48,847 nucleotides of DNA from IMG/VR virus record IMGVR_UViG_3300035698_005975, positions 1 through 48,847 of that record; one strand, written 5' to 3'. Made by a program: the position numbers and the translations under genes. How positions within the stretch are numbered: position 1 is the stretch's first letter; each line of letters begins with the position of its first letter. Of the stretch, positions 15,288 to 32,100 are shown piece after piece. The stretch comes from a virus. The notes under the pieces are model-generated. The model searched no databases. It saw nothing but the letters and a program-made list of their open reading frames with translations, and was not told the DNA's origin.

Positions 15288-16724
15288 GGCAAGGATCTTA
15301 CTCAAGAAAATCCCGCGTACAAGGCCACCAAAGCCGAACGGATCCGGGGGAGAGACTTCTTTGAAGGCGCGCGCGTCATCAAGGAAAAGAAGACCGCGTA
15401 TCTCTTCCGGGAAAAGAACGAAGCGGTTGAAGACTACAATAAGCGCCTGAGCCGTGCCGTGTTCGATCCCTACTCCGAAAAGATCATCACCGCGCGGCAA
15501 GCTGTGCTCTTTTCCAAGCCCGCCACACGCGAACTCGGGGGCCTCGAAGAATGGGCCGGCGACGTGGACAACAAAGGCACGGATGCCAACTCCTTTTTCT
15601 TCGACGTGGCCGAGAACGCCCAGGCGGATGGCATCCATTGGGTTGCTGTTGACCACACGAAACCCGATAAGGACCGCGTAAGCAAAGCAGACGAGGACGC
15701 CGCCGGGGACCGCCCATTCTTCGAGCAAGTCGCAGGCGCCGCCGTCATCGATTGGGAAGTCGGCACAGACCTTGAACTGAACTGGGCCGTTGTGAAGCAG
15801 ACCGCCACGAAGGCGCGCGCGACGGCTGGCGAAGAAATCGAAGCGGTTGAACAGTGGAAGATCTGGTATCGCGACCGTTGGGAAATCTGGCAGCGAGCGG
15901 ACGAGAAAGACAAGACCATTGATAAGTTCAAGAGGACTGAATGGGGCGCTCACCCTTGCGAAGCCGTCCCCCTTATCCCGTGGCTAGGGAAGCCGCGCAC
16001 ATCGTTCTCCGGATGGCCCATCACAATGCCCGTCCATGGCCACATTCTCGCCGTCTACAACCAACAGTCGGATCGCGACTGGTTCATGCAACTTGCATCG
16101 CACCCGCTCCCAGTCGTTATCGGCCCTCAGAACGTCGCGAAGCTCGACACCGGCAAGGGCATGTGGCTCAAGAGTATGGCTGGCGAGACGGTCGATATCA
16201 AGTATCTGGAGCCCGCCGGCACGGCTGTGGACGGCGTCAACGAAGTCATCGAAACCTACCAGCGCAAGATCTTCGCTCTCATGTTGTTCATTTCATCGAA
16301 GGATACGGCCCAGGTGCAATCCGCGGACTCGCAGCGGGAAGATCGGCGCGTGTTCACATCGTCCCTATCTGAGGTGTCCGTCCGATACGAATCCAACGAA
16401 AACCAGTGCTGGGATCTAATGGGGAAATGGACAGACCCAGAAGTACCCGCCGATGCCACCGAGGTCAAGTACAGCCGAGACTTCGATGACAAGTTCATCG
16501 AGGCGACGATGATTTCGGCCTTGACGGAACTGGTAGGCGAAGGCGTGATTACCAAGAGGACGGCGCTACAGGCCGTTGTGGCGGGCGAATTGGTGGAGGT
16601 AGAGGACATCGACGCAGAACTCGCCGCGGCTGCACAAGAGGCCAAAGCACGAACGGAAGAATTGACCCAGGCCGCGCTGGCAAGTCTACGGCGTAGCTCG
16701 GGAGAGGTATCGGGCGATGAATAG
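15279..16724 (+). CDS. Portal protein (DUF4055-type)
   Basis: 481 residues from ATG 15279; ATG 15285 is equally possible and is at the conserved distance from the upstream element. Recognisable portal features are AVFDPYSEKIITARQAVLF near the N-terminus, the long mixed core with IPWLGKPRTSFSG, and the helical end QREDRRVFTSSLSEVSVRYE. These fit the DUF4055 family of siphophage and podophage portals. It forms the dodecameric DNA gate at one capsid vertex and follows TerL directly. The last 45 residues are alanine- and glutamate-rich. Confidence 0.8.
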   Translation: MRMGKDLTQENPAYKATKAERIRGRDFFEGARVIKEKKTAYLFREKNEAVEDYNKRLSRAVFDPYSEKIITARQAVLFSKPATRELGGLEEWAGDVDNKGTDANSFFFDVAENAQADGIHWVAVDHTKPDKDRVSKADEDAAGDRPFFEQVAGAAVIDWEVGTDLELNWAVVKQTATKARATAGEEIEAVEQWKIWYRDRWEIWQRADEKDKTIDKFKRTEWGAHPCEAVPLIPWLGKPRTSFSGWPITMPVHGHILAVYNQQSDRDWFMQLASHPLPVVIGPQNVAKLDTGKGMWLKSMAGETVDIKYLEPAGTAVDGVNEVIETYQRKIFALMLFISSKDTAQVQSADSQREDRRVFTSSLSEVSVRYESNENQCWDLMGKWTDPEVPADATEVKYSRDFDDKFIEATMISALTELVGEGVITKRTALQAVVAGELVEVEDIDAELAAAAQEAKARTEELTQAALASLRRSSGEVSGDE

Positions 16725-16845
16725 GCCAGCGAGGCCGAATCGCCACAACGCCCAACGCAGGGGCGAACTACTGCGGGGGACACGGGACATCCCATTTGAA
16801 ACCCGGACGCGCACGGGCAGCGTAAAGCCCGGAAATGAGGAATGA
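16717..16845 (+). CDS. Small basic protein between portal and scaffold (42 residues)
   Basis: An ATG at 16717 with GGAGAGG upstream overlaps the portal stop and its own stop lies one base before the scaffold ATG, so it exactly fills the gap. The product is arginine-rich (RPARPNRHNAQRRGELLRG). Placement favours a real gene, but nothing identifies a function. Confidence 0.45.
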   Translation: MNRPARPNRHNAQRRGELLRGTRDIPFETRTRTGSVKPGNEE

Positions 16846-16846
16846 C

Positions 16847-17575
16847 ATGCCTTACACGATGAACGCAGAGGGACAGCTTGTAGGCGATGATGGCGCCGTT
16901 GTTGAGATCAATGGCGAAGCCGTCACCGTCACGGGCGCCAAGAGCCAGGCTGAAATGGACGCCGCATTTGCCAAGTCGAACAAGGCCCACAAGGCCAAGC
17001 TCGACGGGTTGACCGCGACGATCAAGACCCTGTCTGAACAGGTCGAAAAGAGCGCGGACACCGAGAAGCTGCTCGCGGATCTCCAGACCGAAAAGATGGT
17101 CCTTGAATCCAAGCTTGGCCAAGCCGAGGCGCACGCCGCCAGCGAGGTGGCAACGCAGCTCGACACTGCGAACAAGAAGGCCAGCGAGAACCAAGCGGCC
17201 TACGAGGCCGAGAGAGATGCCCGCGTGAAAGACCAAGTGCGAAACGTCGTGCTCGGCGCAGCGGGTGCCCGGTTCAACAAACCGGCTCTCGATGTAGTTC
17301 CCCATTTGCTTTCCGTTCACACACGCGAGCCCATCAAGGACGAGACGGGCAAAGCGACTGGCGAGTTCTCGGACACTTTCAAGATGACCTTCGACAAGGA
17401 AGGCAAGCCAGTAACCGAGGATCTGTCCATCGACAAAGCCCTGAAGGTCTGGGGGGAACAGAACCCCCACCACCTAGCCCCGAGCAAGCGCAGAGGTACC
17501 GGCGGCGGAGAGTATTCGCAATCCGGGGCCAGCGACAAGCCGGACGGGCTCGTATATCCAAGCATGGAACCATAA
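16847..17575 (+). CDS. Capsid scaffolding protein (putative)
   Basis: 242 residues; the ATG at 16847 has GAGGA upstream. Residues 35-130 are rich in Lys, Glu and Ala and read as a long coiled coil (ATIKTLSEQVEKSADTEKLL). The C-terminus (ALKVWGEQNPHHLAPSKRRG) is basic, as needed for binding coat subunits. Position between portal and major capsid protein is typical of scaffolds (GP20-like minor structural family). It would guide prohead assembly and leave before packaging. Confidence 0.75.
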   Translation: MPYTMNAEGQLVGDDGAVVEINGEAVTVTGAKSQAEMDAAFAKSNKAHKAKLDGLTATIKTLSEQVEKSADTEKLLADLQTEKMVLESKLGQAEAHAASEVATQLDTANKKASENQAAYEAERDARVKDQVRNVVLGAAGARFNKPALDVVPHLLSVHTREPIKDETGKATGEFSDTFKMTFDKEGKPVTEDLSIDKALKVWGEQNPHHLAPSKRRGTGGGEYSQSGASDKPDGLVYPSMEP

Positions 17576-24598: not shown

Positions 24599-26683
24599 AT
24601 GGCAATCGATCCAACAATTCCAATCAGCGAAGCGGGCCGAATTCGCGAACTCCTTGGACTGTATCAGGCGGCCCAAGTCGAGATCACGAAGGAATTGCGC
24701 AAGGCGGCGTTGACGCCGTTCCGAAGGTTCCGGCTTAGAGAACAACTTCGCCAGGTGGAAGCCGTCACGGCGGCGCTACAGGTGTCGGCTGTGACCGCGT
24801 CAGAGGCCATCATTGCCGCCAACTATAAGACTGGGGCTGATATATCGTCGCTTGCCTTGAATGCCCAGGGCGTGAGCACCGCGCCGATCAACATGGGCAA
24901 CAGAATCAACACGGCGAGCGTGCAAGTCATCGCAGACCAGATGGCCCTTGAATTGGGCATAGCAGCCGATCAAGTCCGTAGGCAAGCCAGCTCCATCCTT
25001 CGCCAGACACAGCAGAAAGTCATTTCAGAAACTCAGATAAATCGGCTGATTGGCCAGGGGATTGTGCGTGGCGAGACCCGGCGCGAAACGTCAAGGGCAT
25101 TGACAAAGGTCATCACAGACCAGATAGGCGACGGAATCCGGGTGCAAGCGGGATCCCGGACGTTCGACCCCAAATACTACGCCGAACTCGTGACGCGGAC
25201 ACGGACGCGCGAGGCTATGACGGAAGGCGCGATACAACGCGGGCTTGAGTACGACGTAACGCTCTATCAGGTGTCCGTCCATGCCTGCGATTGCGATGAG
25301 TGTCTGCTCTATCAAGGCAAGATCTATTCCGTGGTGCCAGACGCCCGTTTCCCTTTACTAGAAGAGAGACCCCCTTATCACCCGAATTGCTTGCTAGAGG
25401 AAACGCCCGTCTTTGCCCCTGGAAAGCGGGCCGCGTTTGTCGCCACCTACAACGGACCTGTAGTCGATATTGCTCTGTCCAATTCCGCACGGTTCTCCAC
25501 CACCATGAATCACGTGTTCCTCACACCGAGTGGTTTTGCTTTCGCGAAGGATCTTCGCGAGGGAGACAAGATACTCTGTAGCGCCCTTTTCGAGGACGTA
25601 GTACTTCGTAACCCAGACAATGACAAGACTCCATCCACTATCAAGGATGAAGTCCGAACGTTTTCTGAATCTCTCGGCGGCTCTTCCTCCAGCGTGCCAG
25701 CTACCGCCAAAGATCTCCACGGCGATGGGCGGTTCGTTGATGGCAATATCAACATTGTAAGGGCCGATGGCCTTCTGAGCCGTGATGCTGAAACCGCGAT
25801 CCCTGAGCCGCCCAGCGAGCGTGACTTCGAGAGGCGTGATGTTGGCTTGTTTGGCCTCGTTGGTTGCCGCGATACGGCAGCGATGCTCATGGCTTTGGGT
25901 GGAGCCCCTGATGGCATCGTGGGCCGCGCGCGAGATCGCCTGGCGTCCCTCTGGCCCGAGTTTCGCCATGCGGAGCCTCATAACCTCACTTCTGGAACGC
26001 CTCTTGATTCCGCCCTTCACGAGAAGCCGATCAACGACACCTTGATCGACGTTAAGTTCTCGCATGAGTTCTCCGACGCTCTCCCCGGCGACGTAGCGGC
26101 TGCAAATCTCGGAAGCCGGGAGCAACGCGCCGGGGCGCTTGCGGGTCGGAATTCCGCGCCTCTTGAGAGTACTGTAAACGCGCGAAACGAGTATATCAAA
26201 TTGCTTGGCAACTTCCTTGCTGCTCATCCCGGCGACATACGCATCGCACACGTCACCAGCCACGGAGTCAGGCAATTTTCTGGACATGTTTACGACCTCC
26301 AAACTGTCTCTTCATTATATCTCTGCAATGGCGCATTGTCAAGCAACTGCAAACACGTCCTGATTGCCTTCGTCCCCATCCCAGGCGAGGAAGACGAACT
26401 AGACGCCATGTCCGCGCTCAGTAGCAAGAGAGGCCCAATCGCCACAGACCACGCCGGATTTGTTCAGGCGACAGACGCGGCGCGCAAGAGAGCGCGGAAG
26501 TCCTTCGTTTCCAAAGCCCAAAACATGACCGTGCCGGAACTGCGCGCACTCGTGACGTACCCGAACGCGAAACGATTCGGGACGAGAGACGCTCTCCTGG
26601 CCTTGGTTGTGGGCGGGAACCTCGCAGCCATCCGCCGCGCCAAAGCTGAAATCAACAGGAAGGCGGCGGAGGCCCGGGGGTAG
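24599..26683 (+). CDS. MuF-like head morphogenesis protein interrupted by an intein
   Basis: 694-residue precursor from ATG 24599 (ATG 24575 is an alternative; neither has a strong ribosome site). Residues 1-263 are an SPP1 gp7/MuF-type minor head protein ending in CDCDECLLYQGK and RPPYHPN. Residues 264-583 are an intein (Cys264 to Asn583). Residues 584-694 resume with CKHVLIAF. After splicing the host protein would be 374 residues with an intact HPNCKH motif, normally a metal-binding or structural motif of the MuF domain. MuF proteins sit inside the capsid near the portal and aid assembly or DNA ejection. The opposite strand of the intein carries a separate gene. Confidence 0.85.
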   Translation: MAIDPTIPISEAGRIRELLGLYQAAQVEITKELRKAALTPFRRFRLREQLRQVEAVTAALQVSAVTASEAIIAANYKTGADISSLALNAQGVSTAPINMGNRINTASVQVIADQMALELGIAADQVRRQASSILRQTQQKVISETQINRLIGQGIVRGETRRETSRALTKVITDQIGDGIRVQAGSRTFDPKYYAELVTRTRTREAMTEGAIQRGLEYDVTLYQVSVHACDCDECLLYQGKIYSVVPDARFPLLEERPPYHPNCLLEETPVFAPGKRAAFVATYNGPVVDIALSNSARFSTTMNHVFLTPSGFAFAKDLREGDKILCSALFEDVVLRNPDNDKTPSTIKDEVRTFSESLGGSSSSVPATAKDLHGDGRFVDGNINIVRADGLLSRDAETAIPEPPSERDFERRDVGLFGLVGCRDTAAMLMALGGAPDGIVGRARDRLASLWPEFRHAEPHNLTSGTPLDSALHEKPINDTLIDVKFSHEFSDALPGDVAAANLGSREQRAGALAGRNSAPLESTVNARNEYIKLLGNFLAAHPGDIRIAHVTSHGVRQFSGHVYDLQTVSSLYLCNGALSSNCKHVLIAFVPIPGEEDELDAMSALSSKRGPIATDHAGFVQATDAARKRARKSFVSKAQNMTVPELRALVTYPNAKRFGTRDALLALVVGGNLAAIRRAKAEINRKAAEARG
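25394..26287 (-). CDS. Antisense Vsr/EDxHD-type homing endonuclease nested in the intein
   Basis: 297 residues on the minus strand from ATG 26287-26285 to TAG 25396-25394. Two HTH-like repeats come first: GMSSKEVAKQFDILVSRVYS (20-39) and GESVGELMRELNVDQGVVDR (68-87), each followed by a KRRGI/KGGIKRR segment. A NUMOD-like stretch (GPEGRQAISRAAHDAIRG) lies at 111-128. The nuclease at about 150-228 has Glu154, Asp180 in YNVDIA, Glu191 in AVEIFGGSWH, His198 and Asp212, matching the Vsr-like EDxHD fold of phage homing endonucleases. The last 60 residues overlap the intein's N-terminal splicing block. It has its own promoter and ribosome site. It would cut intein-free MuF alleles, by inference. Confidence 0.85.
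   Translation of the reverse strand: MSRKLPDSVAGDVCDAYVAGMSSKEVAKQFDILVSRVYSTLKRRGIPTRKRPGALLPASEICSRYVAGESVGELMRELNVDQGVVDRLLVKGGIKRRSRSEVMRLRMAKLGPEGRQAISRAAHDAIRGSTQSHEHRCRIAATNEAKQANITPLEVTLAGRLRDRGFSITAQKAIGPYNVDIAINEPPIAVEIFGGSWHAGGRAAERFRKRSDFILDSGWSLVIVWVTKYYVLEKGATEYLVSLAKILRESKTTRCEEHVIHGGGEPCGIGQSNIDYRSVVGGDKRGPLSRGKDGRFL
26296..26300 (-). promoter_or_regulatory. Ribosome site deciding the antisense endonuclease start
   Basis: On the minus strand GGAGG (26300-26296) lies 8 nt before ATG 26287. A TTG five codons upstream overlaps the site itself, so the ATG is the credible start. Confidence 0.85.
26314..26342 (-). promoter_or_regulatory. Consensus antisense promoter inside the intein C-terminal block
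   Basis: On the minus strand TTGACA (26342-26337), a 17-nt spacer, and TATAAT (26319-26314), a perfect sigma70 consensus. Expected transcription start is near 26307, about 20 nt before the endonuclease ATG. The spacer lacks the TAGATA sequence of the phage's own early promoters, so it is independent of that set. It opposes transcription of the head genes. Confidence 0.85.
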
Positions 26684-27494: not shown

Positions 27495-27904
27495 GTATCA
27501 GTCTACACGAAGCCATCACGCAGCGCCTGGCAACCGACACCGGGTTGACGCTCGGAACGGATCTGTTCTGGGGCCACATTCCGCCCGAGGAAGCCGATCT
27601 AGCCGTCGCCATTCTTGAGCGCGTTCCGATGCCGCGCGACGGGTATAACAACAATTTCAGAAAGCACAGGTTCCAGGTGTTCGGGCGCGGTCCGTCGTTC
27701 AAGACAGGCAAAGACAGAACGGCGCTCGTGAATGACGCCCTCATTGCTAAAACGTTCCGTGGAATTCAACTCACGGATTGGTATCTGTATTTTGCTGTTG
27801 GTGAAGAAGTCATGCACCTTGGAAAAGACGAGCGGGACCGGTTCGAGTTCACAGCGAACGCGACGGCTACCGCCAGAGTAGGAGCACCTTATGGCGCTAC
27901 TTAA
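27491..27904 (+). CDS. Tail terminator/completion protein
   Basis: 137 residues, ATGA-overlapping start. An N-terminal helix (HEAITQRLATDTGL), a strand LFWGHIPPEEADLAVAILER, and a second part ending FEFTANATATARVG match the size, order and alpha/beta pattern of gpU-like tail terminators. It would cap the tail tube at the head end. The call relies mainly on position between neck protein and tail tube. It overlaps the tube gene by 14 nt. Confidence 0.6.
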   Translation: MSISLHEAITQRLATDTGLTLGTDLFWGHIPPEEADLAVAILERVPMPRDGYNNNFRKHRFQVFGRGPSFKTGKDRTALVNDALIAKTFRGIQLTDWYLYFAVGEEVMHLGKDERDRFEFTANATATARVGAPYGAT

Positions 27905-28433
27905 CATCGGACCAGTAGAACTTATCTTCGACGCTGTGAGCCTTGGGCTCACCCACGGAGGCGCTGTGTTGACGTACACAGAGGCCACCGTGCCGACAAC
28001 CGCGGACGTCACCGGCGATACGCCACGGGCGATCATGGTGACTGGAACGGACGCATCCGTCAAGGCGGCAATCACGGAAGCCACGCTCGCACAGCTCAAC
28101 GCTATCGCGGGCGGCACCCTCACAACCACGCAATTGGACCTCACGAACCGCGTCGGCAAAAACCTTGTCGATGACGCGGCAACGTTGATCATGAAGCCCG
28201 TTGTGGAAGGCGTCATCAGCGTAACTGAGACGGAATGGATCTACATTCCCAAGTGCGTGCTCGCGCCGGCATTCGAGGTTCCCAACGATCTCGATGAGCA
28301 GAAGGCGTGGGCGTTCATGGCAACCGGGTTGCCGGTGCTTGCCGCGGACATCGAATCGGGCGGGTTCCTGTACAATTCCGGCGCCCCAGAATACGCGGCA
28401 AATGACCTCGTGCGCCTCGGGTACGTCGCGTAA
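27891..28433 (+). CDS. Major tail (tube) protein
   Basis: 180 residues; the ATG at 27891 follows AGAGTAGGAGCACCTT. The beta-rich sequence (LLNIGPVELIFDAVSLGLTH, ALVTGTD-like turns, LVDDAATLIMKPVVEG) and its position before the tail chaperones identify the tail tube subunit. Expression should be high. A 28-nt near-palindromic hairpin follows the stop, as after the capsid cement gene. Confidence 0.75.
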   Translation: MALLNIGPVELIFDAVSLGLTHGGAVLTYTEATVPTTADVTGDTPRAIMVTGTDASVKAAITEATLAQLNAIAGGTLTTTQLDLTNRVGKNLVDDAATLIMKPVVEGVISVTETEWIYIPKCVLAPAFEVPNDLDEQKAWAFMATGLPVLAADIESGGFLYNSGAPEYAANDLVRLGYVA

Positions 28434-28451
28434 ACAAGTCCCTTTCCGCTT

Positions 28452-28479
28452 GGGCGCGTCGGCATGTGCTGGCGCGCCC
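28452..28479 (+). terminator. Stem-loop after the tail tube gene
   Basis: GGGCGCGTC (28452-28460) pairs with GGCGCGCCC (28471-28479) with one G-U pair, and the GCA/TGC bases inside extend the stem. No clean T-run follows. It may limit read-through or protect the tube mRNA. Confidence 0.55.
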
Positions 28480-28515
28480 TGGCGGTTGACAAAAAAGAGA
28501 GAGGGGAAAGGCACC

Positions 28516-28824
28516 ATGGCACATTTTGACGCAGATAACACGGTAGCACTCCGCAAAGGCGTGACGTTTACGCTGTGCGGAGAAAAGCACGCAGTATTGC
28601 CGTTCACGGATGAACTCATGGAAGATCTCGACCAGATGTCCGCCGTAGACGGTGTCGGGCCGAATGTGTTGTTGCGAAGGCAGCTCGGCCACATCACCGG
28701 CAAAGATCCCGAGACCTTCGCAGGCGCCGATCTGCGAGCGATGTCCGCGACGATGGGCTTCGTGATGGAGCAGCATATCGACCCTTTGTCCGGGCAAAAG
28801 CGAGGGGCGAAGCGGCGAGGATAG
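28516..28824 (+). CDS. Tail assembly chaperone (gpG-like)
   Basis: 102 residues; the ATG at 28516 follows AGAGGGGAAAGGCACC. It is acidic and helical (PFTDELMEDLDQMSAVDGVG) with a basic end. It lies between tail tube and tape measure, where tailed phages encode a chaperone pair joined by a programmed -1 frameshift. The frame of the next gene is open across the whole 3' part of this one, and a CCCTTTG heptamer lies near the end. It would coat the tape measure during assembly. Confidence 0.8.
   Translation: MAHFDADNTVALRKGVTFTLCGEKHAVLPFTDELMEDLDQMSAVDGVGPNVLLRRQLGHITGKDPETFAGADLRAMSATMGFVMEQHIDPLSGQKRGAKRRG
28782..28788 (+). other. Putative -1 frameshift slippery heptamer
   Basis: C-CCT-TTG in the frame of the upstream chaperone fits the X-XXY-YYZ rule. 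A shift here joins residue 91 of gpG-like to the downstream frame, giving a product of about 208 residues. A weaker alternative is A-AAG at 28797-28800. Confidence 0.55.
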
Positions 28825-29141
28825 CGCATACCTGGTCTGCTTTCCCTGGGTTCCGGTATCGCGAATTGCTGAGAATGGACAGCGTAGAGTCTGCCATCTG
28901 GCATGACGAGGCAACGCGACAGATTGCACGACGGCAGAAAGCGGCAATGGACGCGGCGTGCTCGCCGTACTGGGAGAAAGAGGCGTTGGCGGCCGAGCAA
29001 AAGCGGCTGGTCAAGCTCATGTCCCCAGCCAAGGAAGATGGCGGTGAGGGAAACGCCGACGCGCAAGCACGCGCCCAGGAAGCCGAGTGGCTAAGAAATA
29101 GGCAACGATTGCCAGGGCTCATAGGCAGGAAACAGAGGTAG
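28788..29141 (+). CDS. Tail chaperone frameshift extension (gpT-like)
   Basis: This frame is open from well upstream of the slip site to the stop at 29139-29141 and is read after a -1 shift; the internal ATG at 28875 has no ribosome site. The extension (IAHTWSAFPGFRYRELLRMD, then AIWHDEATRQIARR) and its Lys/Glu-rich end match the T domain of gpGT proteins. The fusion product binds both the tape measure and the tail tube subunits. Confidence 0.7.
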   Translation, partial: VRAKARGEAARIAHTWSAFPGFRYRELLRMDSVESAIWHDEATRQIARRQKAAMDAACSPYWEKEALAAEQKRLVKLMSPAKEDGGEGNADAQARAQEAEWLRNRQRLPGLIGRKQR

Positions 29142-29144
29142 ACC

Positions 29145-32100
29145 ATGCCATACAAGGCCGGATCGATAGTCGCCGACTTCAAGTTGTCCCTCGGCAATTG
29201 GTCTGCTGGCATGCGGAAGATCGGGCGTGACACGAAGTCTCTCAGGGGACAGCTCAAATCTATCGGCACTTCGATATCAGGCGTAGGCAGGAAGCTGGCG
29301 ATAATGTCAACAGCCTTGGCCGCAGCAACACTTCTCGTGGCGCGCTCATTTACCCAAGCCGCAAGCACGGCGGAACAGTACCAGGTCCGGCTTAACATCC
29401 TTTTGGGCTCTGTTGAAGAGGGCAATCGTATGTTCAAGGAAATGGCGGATTTCGCGAGCCGCGTTCCTTTCGAGTTTGAGCATATCATGGAAGGCGCGAC
29501 GGTCCTATCCGGCGTGATGCGCAACGGGGTAGACGAAGTCAAGGCGTGGATGCCATTGATTGCCGATCTTGCCGTTGTTACTGGCTTTGGATTGCAGACA
29601 ACAATGGGGCAGTTCGTGCGCATGTTCTCGGCGGGTGCCGCGTCTGCTGATTTGTTCCGCGAAAAAGGCATCCTGACAATGCTCGGATTCACGGCGGGTG
29701 TGCGTGTGAGTGCGGAAGACACGCGACGCCAGCTTGTAGAAATGTGGACAGCGGCGGAGTCGAAATTCCGAGGCGCGATAGAGGCCATGGCGAATACGTT
29801 TGCTGGCCAAATCAGCATGATCAAGGATAAATGGTTCCTGTTTCGCATCGAGGTCATGGAATCTGGCATATTCGAGTGGATGAAAAAAGGGCTCAAGGCC
29901 GTCAATGCGTTCATCGACATTCATCGCGATGAAATGAACCAATGGATCGCAGACAACGGCAGACTCATCGCAAAGGTGGTGATCGCTACAGGGTCCATCA
30001 TTGCTTTGGCTGCAGCGGTAGCCAGCTTCACGCTTGTCGTGTACAGTGCATCTGCTGCTATTGGTGCGTTCGGAATTGCAATCAGCTTATTGAAACTCCT
30101 GACAATCAAGAATCTTGTTCTTGGTGTAGCGGCTGCGTTTCAGGCGCTCGGGCTTTCTGCCAGTGCGGCTTGGCTGTCTTTGTCTGCGCCAGCACTTATG
30201 GTTGTCGCGGCCATCGCAACCGTGACGGCCGCCGTGTATGCGTGGCGTGTGGTGTGGAATGAGAATCTAGGCGGAATGCGGGACATCCTAATCCGCATGG
30301 GTCAAACCATTAGTGACGTGTTTACCTCGGCGTGGACAGTGGTTAAGGGTTTCATGGAGTCCTTCGCCTCTGGGTGGTTCAGGCTCGTCATGATGCCATT
30401 GAATGGCTTCAACAAAATGATCAACATTGCTATCTCGCGCTATGCGTTCTGGCAGAAACTCATCGAGACTCGGTCCTTTGCCGAGGCAGACAAGGCGTTC
30501 TTGAGAGCAGAGAACCAGTTTGATATCGCCGACGTAATCACCGGAGCGGGAGAGAAAGCCAAAGACGCGATTAAGGGGTGGGGATTCCTGATCAAGAAAG
30601 GCGCAGAGGAGGCACAACAAACCATTGCGGAGTTTATGCCGGAGTTCAAAGCGGCGCTGATTAAGCAACTCGAAACAGACTTAGGCGCGGATCTAAGCCC
30701 CGAGGGTTTGGCAAAAATGAAGGCGTCGGCGTGGGAATTCCTTACCGGGTGGATTCCAACACCAGCGGAGATCGAGGCCAATGCAAAAGAGGCAACGGAA
30801 GCATTATTGAAGGAGCTTGAAGCAGGAATGGGGAGCGGAGTTTCTGAGGAAATGGGCAAGGCCGCGGCGAAACTAGCCGATAAGGGGAGAGCGGCATTCC
30901 TGTCACTTCACCCGGTCAAGGGCGCCATCGTTGATATAACCGAAACGCTCCATGAATTGAAAGCAGCAGGACTGCTCACGGACGTAGAATCCAGCCTCTT
31001 GGGCACGCAGACGTGGGACAAAATGAAAGGGCACGGGCAAGAGGCGCTGTCCAATCTAGCGATCGACTTGCGGGAACTCGGCGGGCAAGCGGCCATCGCT
31101 GGAGACGCCATTGTTCAGTCCATGTCCGACGCGATGGAAGCCACGGCCCGGGCGAAGTCGGACATCATTCTTGAACGCATCACGGACGATCCGTTCGCCG
31201 ATCTACAGGAAGACATCAACACTCTGATTGCGTCTGGCGACATGACGGAACAGACGCAGAATCTTCTCGGCCTGGATTACTGGAACCAGCTCAAGGGCGA
31301 GAGCGACGCAACGCTCGACGGCATGGCCGGCAAGCTGGCGAACGTCTCGGCCATCGGCGCGGCGGCTTTCAACAAAGCGCGCGAGGAACAGGCGAAAGCA
31401 GACAAAGAGACGGTCAAGTGGGGCAAGGATTTGTCAACGCTCGGGGCCAACATCGTCGCGGTTGGTGATTCCATCGGCAGCAAGATCGCAAAGAAGTTCG
31501 GCGCCGCGGCCTCCGCTGCTGGTTCGTTCATGCAATCATTGGACGCAGTATCAAAAGGGCTGAAGGACATTAAGGGGACCGGCGAGAGCGCGACAAAGGC
31601 GGTGTTGTCGGGCGTACTCCAGATGGGCTCTGGAATCATGGGCGCGGTTGGCGCCGTCGCGACATTGGCCGAGGCATTCGGTCTATTCGGCGAAAAGGCA
31701 GTCGAAGAACTCAAAGGCATGGACGCCGTCATAGATGACATCCGGCAAGCTTCCGAAGAATGGACGGATCGCATGGCCGAGGATCTGCTGGAATTTGTCA
31801 AGACCGGCAAGCTGGCAATCAAAGACCTTGCCGAATACATGCTCGATGAAATCTTCAAGATCTCCATTTCGCGCCTCGTGCTGGAGCCCGCGGTCGGAGC
31901 ATTCGGTGGCCTGATTGGATTCGCGGACGGCGGCGCATTCAAGAACGGCGCGGTAGTCAATACCCCGACCTATTTCGCCTCAAAGTCCGGCACGGTGGTT
32001 GCGGGTGAAGCCGGGACAGAAGTCATCCTCCCAGCCGTGCGTATGCCAGACGGTACGCTTGGCGTCCGTAGCGCGGACGGTGGCGGCGGCGGGAATGTCG

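Follow-up and report, generated by a model that had tools for sequence, protein, structure and literature searches.

In the textbook view an intein is one polypeptide, with its splicing and endonuclease functions fused and hence expressed together. The MuF-like minor head protein gene in the window analysed here, a 48,847-nucleotide stretch of viral DNA (IMG/VR record IMGVR_UViG_3300035698_005975), raises the question of where a large intein keeps its homing endonuclease when the sense strand codes for none. The original prediction, made from the letters alone, placed an intein in this gene with splicing blocks at both ends and no sense endonuclease, and assigned to the minus strand of the same DNA a 297-residue protein with helix-turn-helix (HTH) repeats and a Vsr-type nuclease domain. 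The features of both strands, as we now see them, are collected in Table 1.

Table 1. Features of the MuF locus, in window positions, with the predicted genes and signals of each strand.
Feature	Position	Strand	Basis or remark
MuF-like minor head (capsid) protein gene, exteins and intein	24599–26683	+	ORF open from 24521
Intein, Cys1 to Asn320 with Cys+1 next (320 codons/aa)	25388–26347	+	Boundary residues, Pfam Intein_splicing, intein folds
N-terminal Hint half, blocks A and B (TTMNHVFLT), up to GDKIL	25388–25582	+	pLDDT 87–98; substitutions follow sense frame
C-terminal Hint half, block F (HVYDL) and block G (GALSSN/C)	26225–26347	+	pLDDT up to 98; sense-dominated conservation from 26231
Antisense nuclease gene (297 aa), ATG start at 26287, stop 25394–25396	25394–26287	-	Entirely inside intein
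First HTH unit, residues 7–43	26159–26269	-	CENP-B_N E 6e-5; helices 7–43; Cbp1 (2lvs) among best folds
Second HTH unit, residues 58–91	26015–26116	-	Helices 58–91 in model
MTES_1575/Vsr-like nuclease domain, residues 156–241	25565–25822	-	PF18741; conserved core E154, D180, E191, H198, R210
Sigma-70-type promoter TTGACA-N17-TATAAT inside block G codons	26314–26342	-	12/12 consensus match
Shine-Dalgarno GGAGGT of antisense gene, 7 nt before ATG	26295–26300	-	Sequence; GGAGGT or variant in many relatives
Antisense start codon, reverse complement of block F His codon (CAT)	26285–26287	-	Position kept in relatives

On the sense strand, the host gene matches Phage_min_cap2 (E 1e-8), Phage_Mu_F (E 1e-3) and the minor head protein family phrog_4611 (E 2e-37). 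Its intein runs from PPYHPN/CLLEETP to GALSSN/CKHVL (slashes mark junctions throughout), with the sense frame open throughout, and the predicted coordinates proved exact. Across 44 aligned sequences the class 1 residues C1, H42, N320 and C321 are invariant and T39 is kept in at least 90%. The Pfam Intein_splicing profile matches 37 of the 44 at E≤1e-3, the window copy itself (E 7e-5) lying below the cut-off, and a profile search with the intein finds the MJ0781 (KlbA) and Mtu RecA inteins. The penultimate residue is Ser in the window; a His at this position is usual in inteins, not obligatory, and among 58 sequences it is Ser in 38, His in 10, Lys in eight and Arg in two. The sense middle of the intein has no Pfam domain match, so that the sense-frame endonuclease of canonical inteins is absent, as had been claimed. 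AlphaFold gives the sense protein a Hint fold whose best structural matches are inteins, with both ends above pLDDT 90 and a disordered middle (residues 179–256, pLDDT below 50). One relative (L036) seems to carry, further upstream in its MuF frame, another intein of a different kind (VEDAACFYANGILVHN/CDYC), whose antisense side has an open segment with no recognised nuclease motif.

The opposite strand encodes the predicted nuclease, which lengthens to 302 residues if an alternative in-frame TTG at 26302 serves as the start. Its match to PF18741 reaches 41.5 bits against a cut-off of 38.2 (E 1.5e-10), and 41 of 45 aligned members match at E≤1e-3; with a profile score above the cut-off and a conserved E/D/E core (E154, D180, E191), it belongs to the MTES_1575/DUF559 superfamily. 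Both HTH units foreseen in the original prediction are present, although one of the two is missing as a block from the alignment in some relatives. Of the four residues that had been singled out as those of an EDxHD-type nuclease, Glu154, Asp180 and His198 are kept in 44, 45 and 44 of the 45 near relatives, as are E191 in 43 and R210 in 45, whereas D212 is found in only 17. The I-Bth0305I-like EDxHD motif is thus incomplete when its final Asp is placed at D212, and roughly half of the relatives at greater distance have lost H198 as well.

Structure prediction, for which an alignment of the window with IMG/VR loci was used, speaks for the original prediction of a nuclease on the minus strand. 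The antisense protein is modelled confidently (mean pLDDT 86), residues 271–297 being of low confidence, and its best solved folds, all with weak E-values, include NGO0050 (3hrl), the CRISPR-repeat-binding protein Cbp1 (2lvs), I-Bth0305I and Vsr; the Foldseek matches to I-Bth0305I and Vsr (3r3p, 1cw0, 1vsr) are weak, with E 0.08–0.16 and probabilities of 0.85–0.97. A profile search finds 3hrl (E 0.002) and Cbp1 (E 0.001), and phmmer with the single protein against the PDB returned only 3hrl, at E 0.58. The antisense unit, from its −35 box at 26342 to its stop at 25394, had been described as lying wholly within the intein; this holds strictly in the window, but in a few relatives the antisense stop reaches some codons into the extein.

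We consider it very probable that this is a mobile intein whose homing endonuclease gene is reversed and has a promoter to itself. The reversed gene lies at the usual place of the endonuclease, between Hint blocks B and F, and this promoter would let it be transcribed independently of the head operon. Its product would cut MuF alleles that lack the intein, and repair from the occupied copy would then duplicate both the intein and the nuclease gene. During expression of the head gene, ribosomes would read through the reversed nuclease gene as a loop of about 150–200 residues with no function of its own, around which the Hint halves would fold, and splicing would remove this loop along with the rest of the intein, leaving MuF intact. 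That the antisense promoter is used, that the empty site is cut, and that the intein homes and splices are all steps that we infer from sequence. The penultimate Ser, the Intein_splicing match below the cut-off in the window and the weak Foldseek matches to Vsr and I-Bth0305I count against the mobile-intein reading.

Mobility is best seen where host genes are closely related. Gordonia phages whose MuF proteins are ~99% identical have a site that is empty (Rofo and others) or occupied by an intein of the Vivi2 type, of the related Sampson/Keitabear type, or of a different kind, 825 nt long, at the same site (Lennon, Barsten). Recent transfer is indicated for Snoke (from E. coli) and LPSE1 (from Salmonella): the two phages differ at 50% of third positions in the exteins and at 13.5% of the freest positions within the intein. 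In the Guernseyvirinae, MuF has two different insertion sites, and the sites of SZH-1 are empty; fEg-Eco06 (L020) and Snoke (L019) have inteins at STTC/RARDG and HPNC/RSTT, both with antisense Vsr-like nucleases. LAGLIDADG proteins are a classical homing endonuclease family, and the intein of Lennon (L115, 2101–2925) and Barsten (L117) encodes, antisense and in codon register, a LAGLIDADG-like protein with the motif AAFIDGEG. This assignment is drawn from the motif, from I-MsoI (E 4e-4) and from phrog_5046 (E 1e-15, labelled HNH endonuclease), a Pfam search of the Lennon protein giving no match at E 0.01. On these assignments, two nuclease families, one Vsr-like and one LAGLIDADG-like, share the antisense arrangement.

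It could be argued that the antisense nuclease is real but serves a role other than homing, for example the exclusion of, or defence against, competing phages, as MTES_1575-type domains occur in anti-phage proteins (partial matches to the ProA and Hhe models). We consider this unlikely, given that the nuclease sits exactly in an intein at a conserved site which is empty or occupied in near-identical exteins, that the element appears to have been transferred between phage genera, and that a LAGLIDADG-like protein is found in the same position.

The mobile intein with a reversed nuclease gene is not peculiar to the window. A tblastn search with the antisense protein returned 120 phage records, covering phages of Gordonia, Vibrio, Pseudomonas, Haemophilus/Aggregatibacter, Klebsiella, Edwardsiella, Idiomarinaceae, Cronobacter and Mycobacterium, together with Guernseyvirinae of Salmonella and E. 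coli. At the loci that were examined, the matching segment is antisense to, and inside, a head-protein gene, except in virus Rctr197k (L016, 616–1968), where the same intein type with its antisense nuclease lies in a dCMP (deoxycytidylate) deaminase rather than MuF; this deaminase gene carries the annotation ‘head morphogenesis protein’. Both frames are open, and in the same register, at 27 of 27 loci in a first set that combined phage records with close relatives of the window. Scanning IMG/VR with a profile confirmed 450 relatives, and in the best 80 of these, retrieved with the antisense query only, the in-register sense frame has no stop in 80 of 80, the other two minus-strand frames carry 2–34 stops, and the nuclease frame is intact to its natural end in 80 of 80 once tail stops are recognised. 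The claim that the minus frame would stay unbroken where the intein is conserved is therefore upheld in both sets. Four IMG/VR loci (L048, L072, L074 and L086) were considered as broken antisense frames and rejected, each having a natural tail stop after its last conserved motif.

Among bacterial genomes, 23 of 25 loci have the same two-strand arrangement, and the groups represented include Firmicutes, Actinobacteria, Gammaproteobacteria, Chloroflexi, Cyanobacteria, Gemmatimonadales and Peregrinibacteria; one relative (L140) has an internal antisense stop. The antisense-in-intein arrangement is widespread, in well over a hundred sequences of phages and prophages from many bacterial phyla. A distant relative in a Bacillota genome bin (L142), with HTH and nuclease similarity and no open sense frame, is possibly a free-standing homologue.

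Codons of the splicing blocks also provide the predicted antisense gene with a ribosome-binding site and a start codon of its own and, in many relatives, with a promoter of consensus sequence. In 19 of 21 listed sequences the start is the reverse complement of the His codon of block F, which is CAT in 18 of them and CAC in the other, and GGAGGT or a variant of it is formed from the Asp/Asn-Leu codons of the block F motif. An exact TATAAT is present at the best site in 34 of 56 sequences, and in 40 of the 56 the promoter scores above synonymous recodings of its peptide (P<0.05), the other 16 not being significant; P values here are nominal, as the sequences in the promoter and selection tests are related. 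The Shine-Dalgarno sequence exceeds synonymous recoding at P<0.05 in only eight of 56, a weak test, by which block F may supply the ribosome-binding site at almost no extra cost. Where TTGACA lies over the last intein codons (26335–26347 in the window, and in relatives), the penultimate residue is Ser or Lys; the box lies there in none of the ten His-type inteins, several of which use an extended −10 (TGNTATAAT) instead, and we infer that the antisense promoter drove the loss of the penultimate His. What counts against a separately promoted nuclease is that the promoter is not clear in every lineage.

These signals bear on a second alternative, in which the nuclease gene is a relic, its expression lost, and splicing alone lets the MuF copy persist. 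Homing cycles do predict decaying copies, and L140 has its internal stop, yet the frame, the core residues, the promoter and the start are intact in the window copy and in nearly all relatives, which makes this explanation very unlikely.

There remains the matter of whether the antisense frame is a gene at all. Codons on the two strands are in register, with position 2 of one opposite position 2 of the other, and in a GC-rich window this register makes long antisense ORFs common, so that openness alone means little: minus-strand ORFs of 408, 405 and 389 aa lie at 28694–29920, 16256–17473 and 27897–29066, presumably as chance mirrors of sense genes. The antisense ORF might thus be a mere mirror of a conserved sense intein domain, left open by the chance of register, and the AlphaFold model offers some encouragement for such a view, with sense residues 85–125 modelled fairly confidently though they lie opposite the nuclease core. 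We attribute that confidence to mirrored conservation of the core, and these residues may also have a minor sense role.

It is the comparison with relatives that lifts the antisense gene above chance. In pairs of close relatives, the exteins and intein ends differ mainly at sense position 3, whereas the intein middle differs mainly at sense position 1, which is antisense position 3. Differences at sense positions 1/2/3 number 75/39/183 in the extein and 25/2/5 in the middle for Snoke and LPSE1, 30/12/109 and 18/4/5 for Vibrio 1.197 and 1.113, and 8/3/73 and 56/13/38 for Vivi2 and Angelicage. In the Snoke/LPSE1 middle, the sense protein differs at 26 of 185 residues and the antisense protein at five; the Lennon/Barsten-type intein shows the same reversal (31/2/8), with 31 of 110 sense residues differing and five antisense. 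Over 44 sequences the polarity switches near 25571 and 26230, antisense-dominated conservation extending over 25571–26230. These points are near the block boundaries, which indicates that the nuclease, with its HTH and catalytic domains, and the Hint halves are mostly on different stretches; the overlap relevant to both genes consists of the nuclease start region with blocks F and G and the last ~50 residues of the nuclease. An in-register nuclease gene must also avoid TTA, CTA and TCA, which would stop the sense frame. About 89 such codons are expected in the nuclease gene from local codon usage at 17 loci and none is observed, AT-rich relatives avoiding all three completely; the MuF exteins of the same phages contain 0.5–6.7 antisense-stopping codons per 100, and the intein interiors contain none.

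The original prediction had looked to selection in both frames among relatives, and the reversal of polarity answers to it. By this pattern, both frames are kept open in register and each strand is selected for its own protein in its own segment, the antisense gene in the intein middle and the sense protein at the Hint ends. The mirror of a sense domain is rejected by codon-position polarity, and sits poorly with a Pfam nuclease domain above the cut-off, matched in 41 of 45 members, with a confidently modelled antisense fold and with AT-rich relatives devoid of TTA, CTA and TCA; a chance open frame is rejected by the comparison with relatives, though openness alone is not significant in a GC-rich window. 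We regard the mirror explanation as extremely improbable. Equally hard to credit is a MuF gene broken by an inverted endonuclease insertion with an accidentally open sense frame, for which the non-canonical penultimate Ser might speak, since Cys1, the block B His, the terminal Asn and Cys+1 are kept in 44 of 44 aligned sequences, sense stops are avoided and the extein reading frame is intact on both sides.

For the intein with its reversed nuclease gene, a broader proposal can be made, for which we put the chances at about even. Antisense placement may be a recurrent, selected solution in phage inteins, reached with at least two unrelated nuclease families, in which block F doubles as ribosome-binding site and start and the −35 box now claims the codons for the penultimate residue (Ser or Lys in place of His), thereby shaping the splicing active site.

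The accessible literature yielded no account of an intein with an endonuclease encoded antisense within it. A 2025 preprint by Gosselin, Arsenault and Gogarten (doi 10.1101/2025.01.02.630785), said to treat Actinobacteriophage (PhagesDB) inteins and to have ‘non-canonical architecture’ in its title, may already describe cases and plausibly includes the Gordonia MuF inteins. Whatever that earlier survey covers of the Gordonia cases, neither the wide distribution nor the evidence for the promoter depends on it. Like the large LAGLIDADG/HNH inteins (PI-SceI, PI-PfuI, Tli VMA), the present element splits Hint around an endonuclease between blocks B and F and is inserted at a conserved site of an essential gene; in those inteins, however, the endonuclease is part of the sense polypeptide, whereas here it would be a separate opposite-strand gene with its own start and promoter. 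With the EDxHD/Vsr-like homing endonucleases such as I-Bth0305I it shares an association with introns or inteins, the conservation of E and D (often also H) and probably a Vsr-like fold, and differs in that the last D, placed at D212 by the original prediction, is not conserved and that E191 and R210 are.

Fractured genes with split inteins and EDxHD/Vsr-like homing endonucleases have been described (Dassa et al., 2009, as cited in PMC12350094). A fractured gene has its host gene in two separate ORFs with a free-standing nuclease gene between, whereas the MuF studied here is a single open frame, its intein contiguous with the host gene and its nuclease antisense. Antisense homing endonuclease genes are known in group I introns at nuclear rDNA L2066 (PMC9548176), and these likewise lie opposite their splicing host element; an RNA intron needs no sense frame, however, while an intein must be translated through the reversed gene. 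A hidden endonuclease without splicing is known on the same strand (PMC11855218): it too lies in a different frame of an insertion that leaves the host frame open, but no splicing domain and no ribosome-binding site were found there.

The minus-strand nuclease has almost never been recognised. The only annotation seen is an automatic hypothetical ORF in Salmonella records like that of phage PK2 (XRA40007.1; L018, 2405–3214); most other phage records examined leave the antisense ORF unannotated, while the sense head gene is annotated in many. Surveys that seek sense-frame endonucleases alone would score these elements as nuclease-free inteins. At this locus, selection on two antiparallel genes that overlap can be tested cleanly, and the non-canonical penultimate residues of the intein family gain a possible explanation. 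With splicing and nuclease functions on opposite strands of one DNA, the two would be under separate control, which suggests a way for the nuclease to escape the late timing of head-gene expression.
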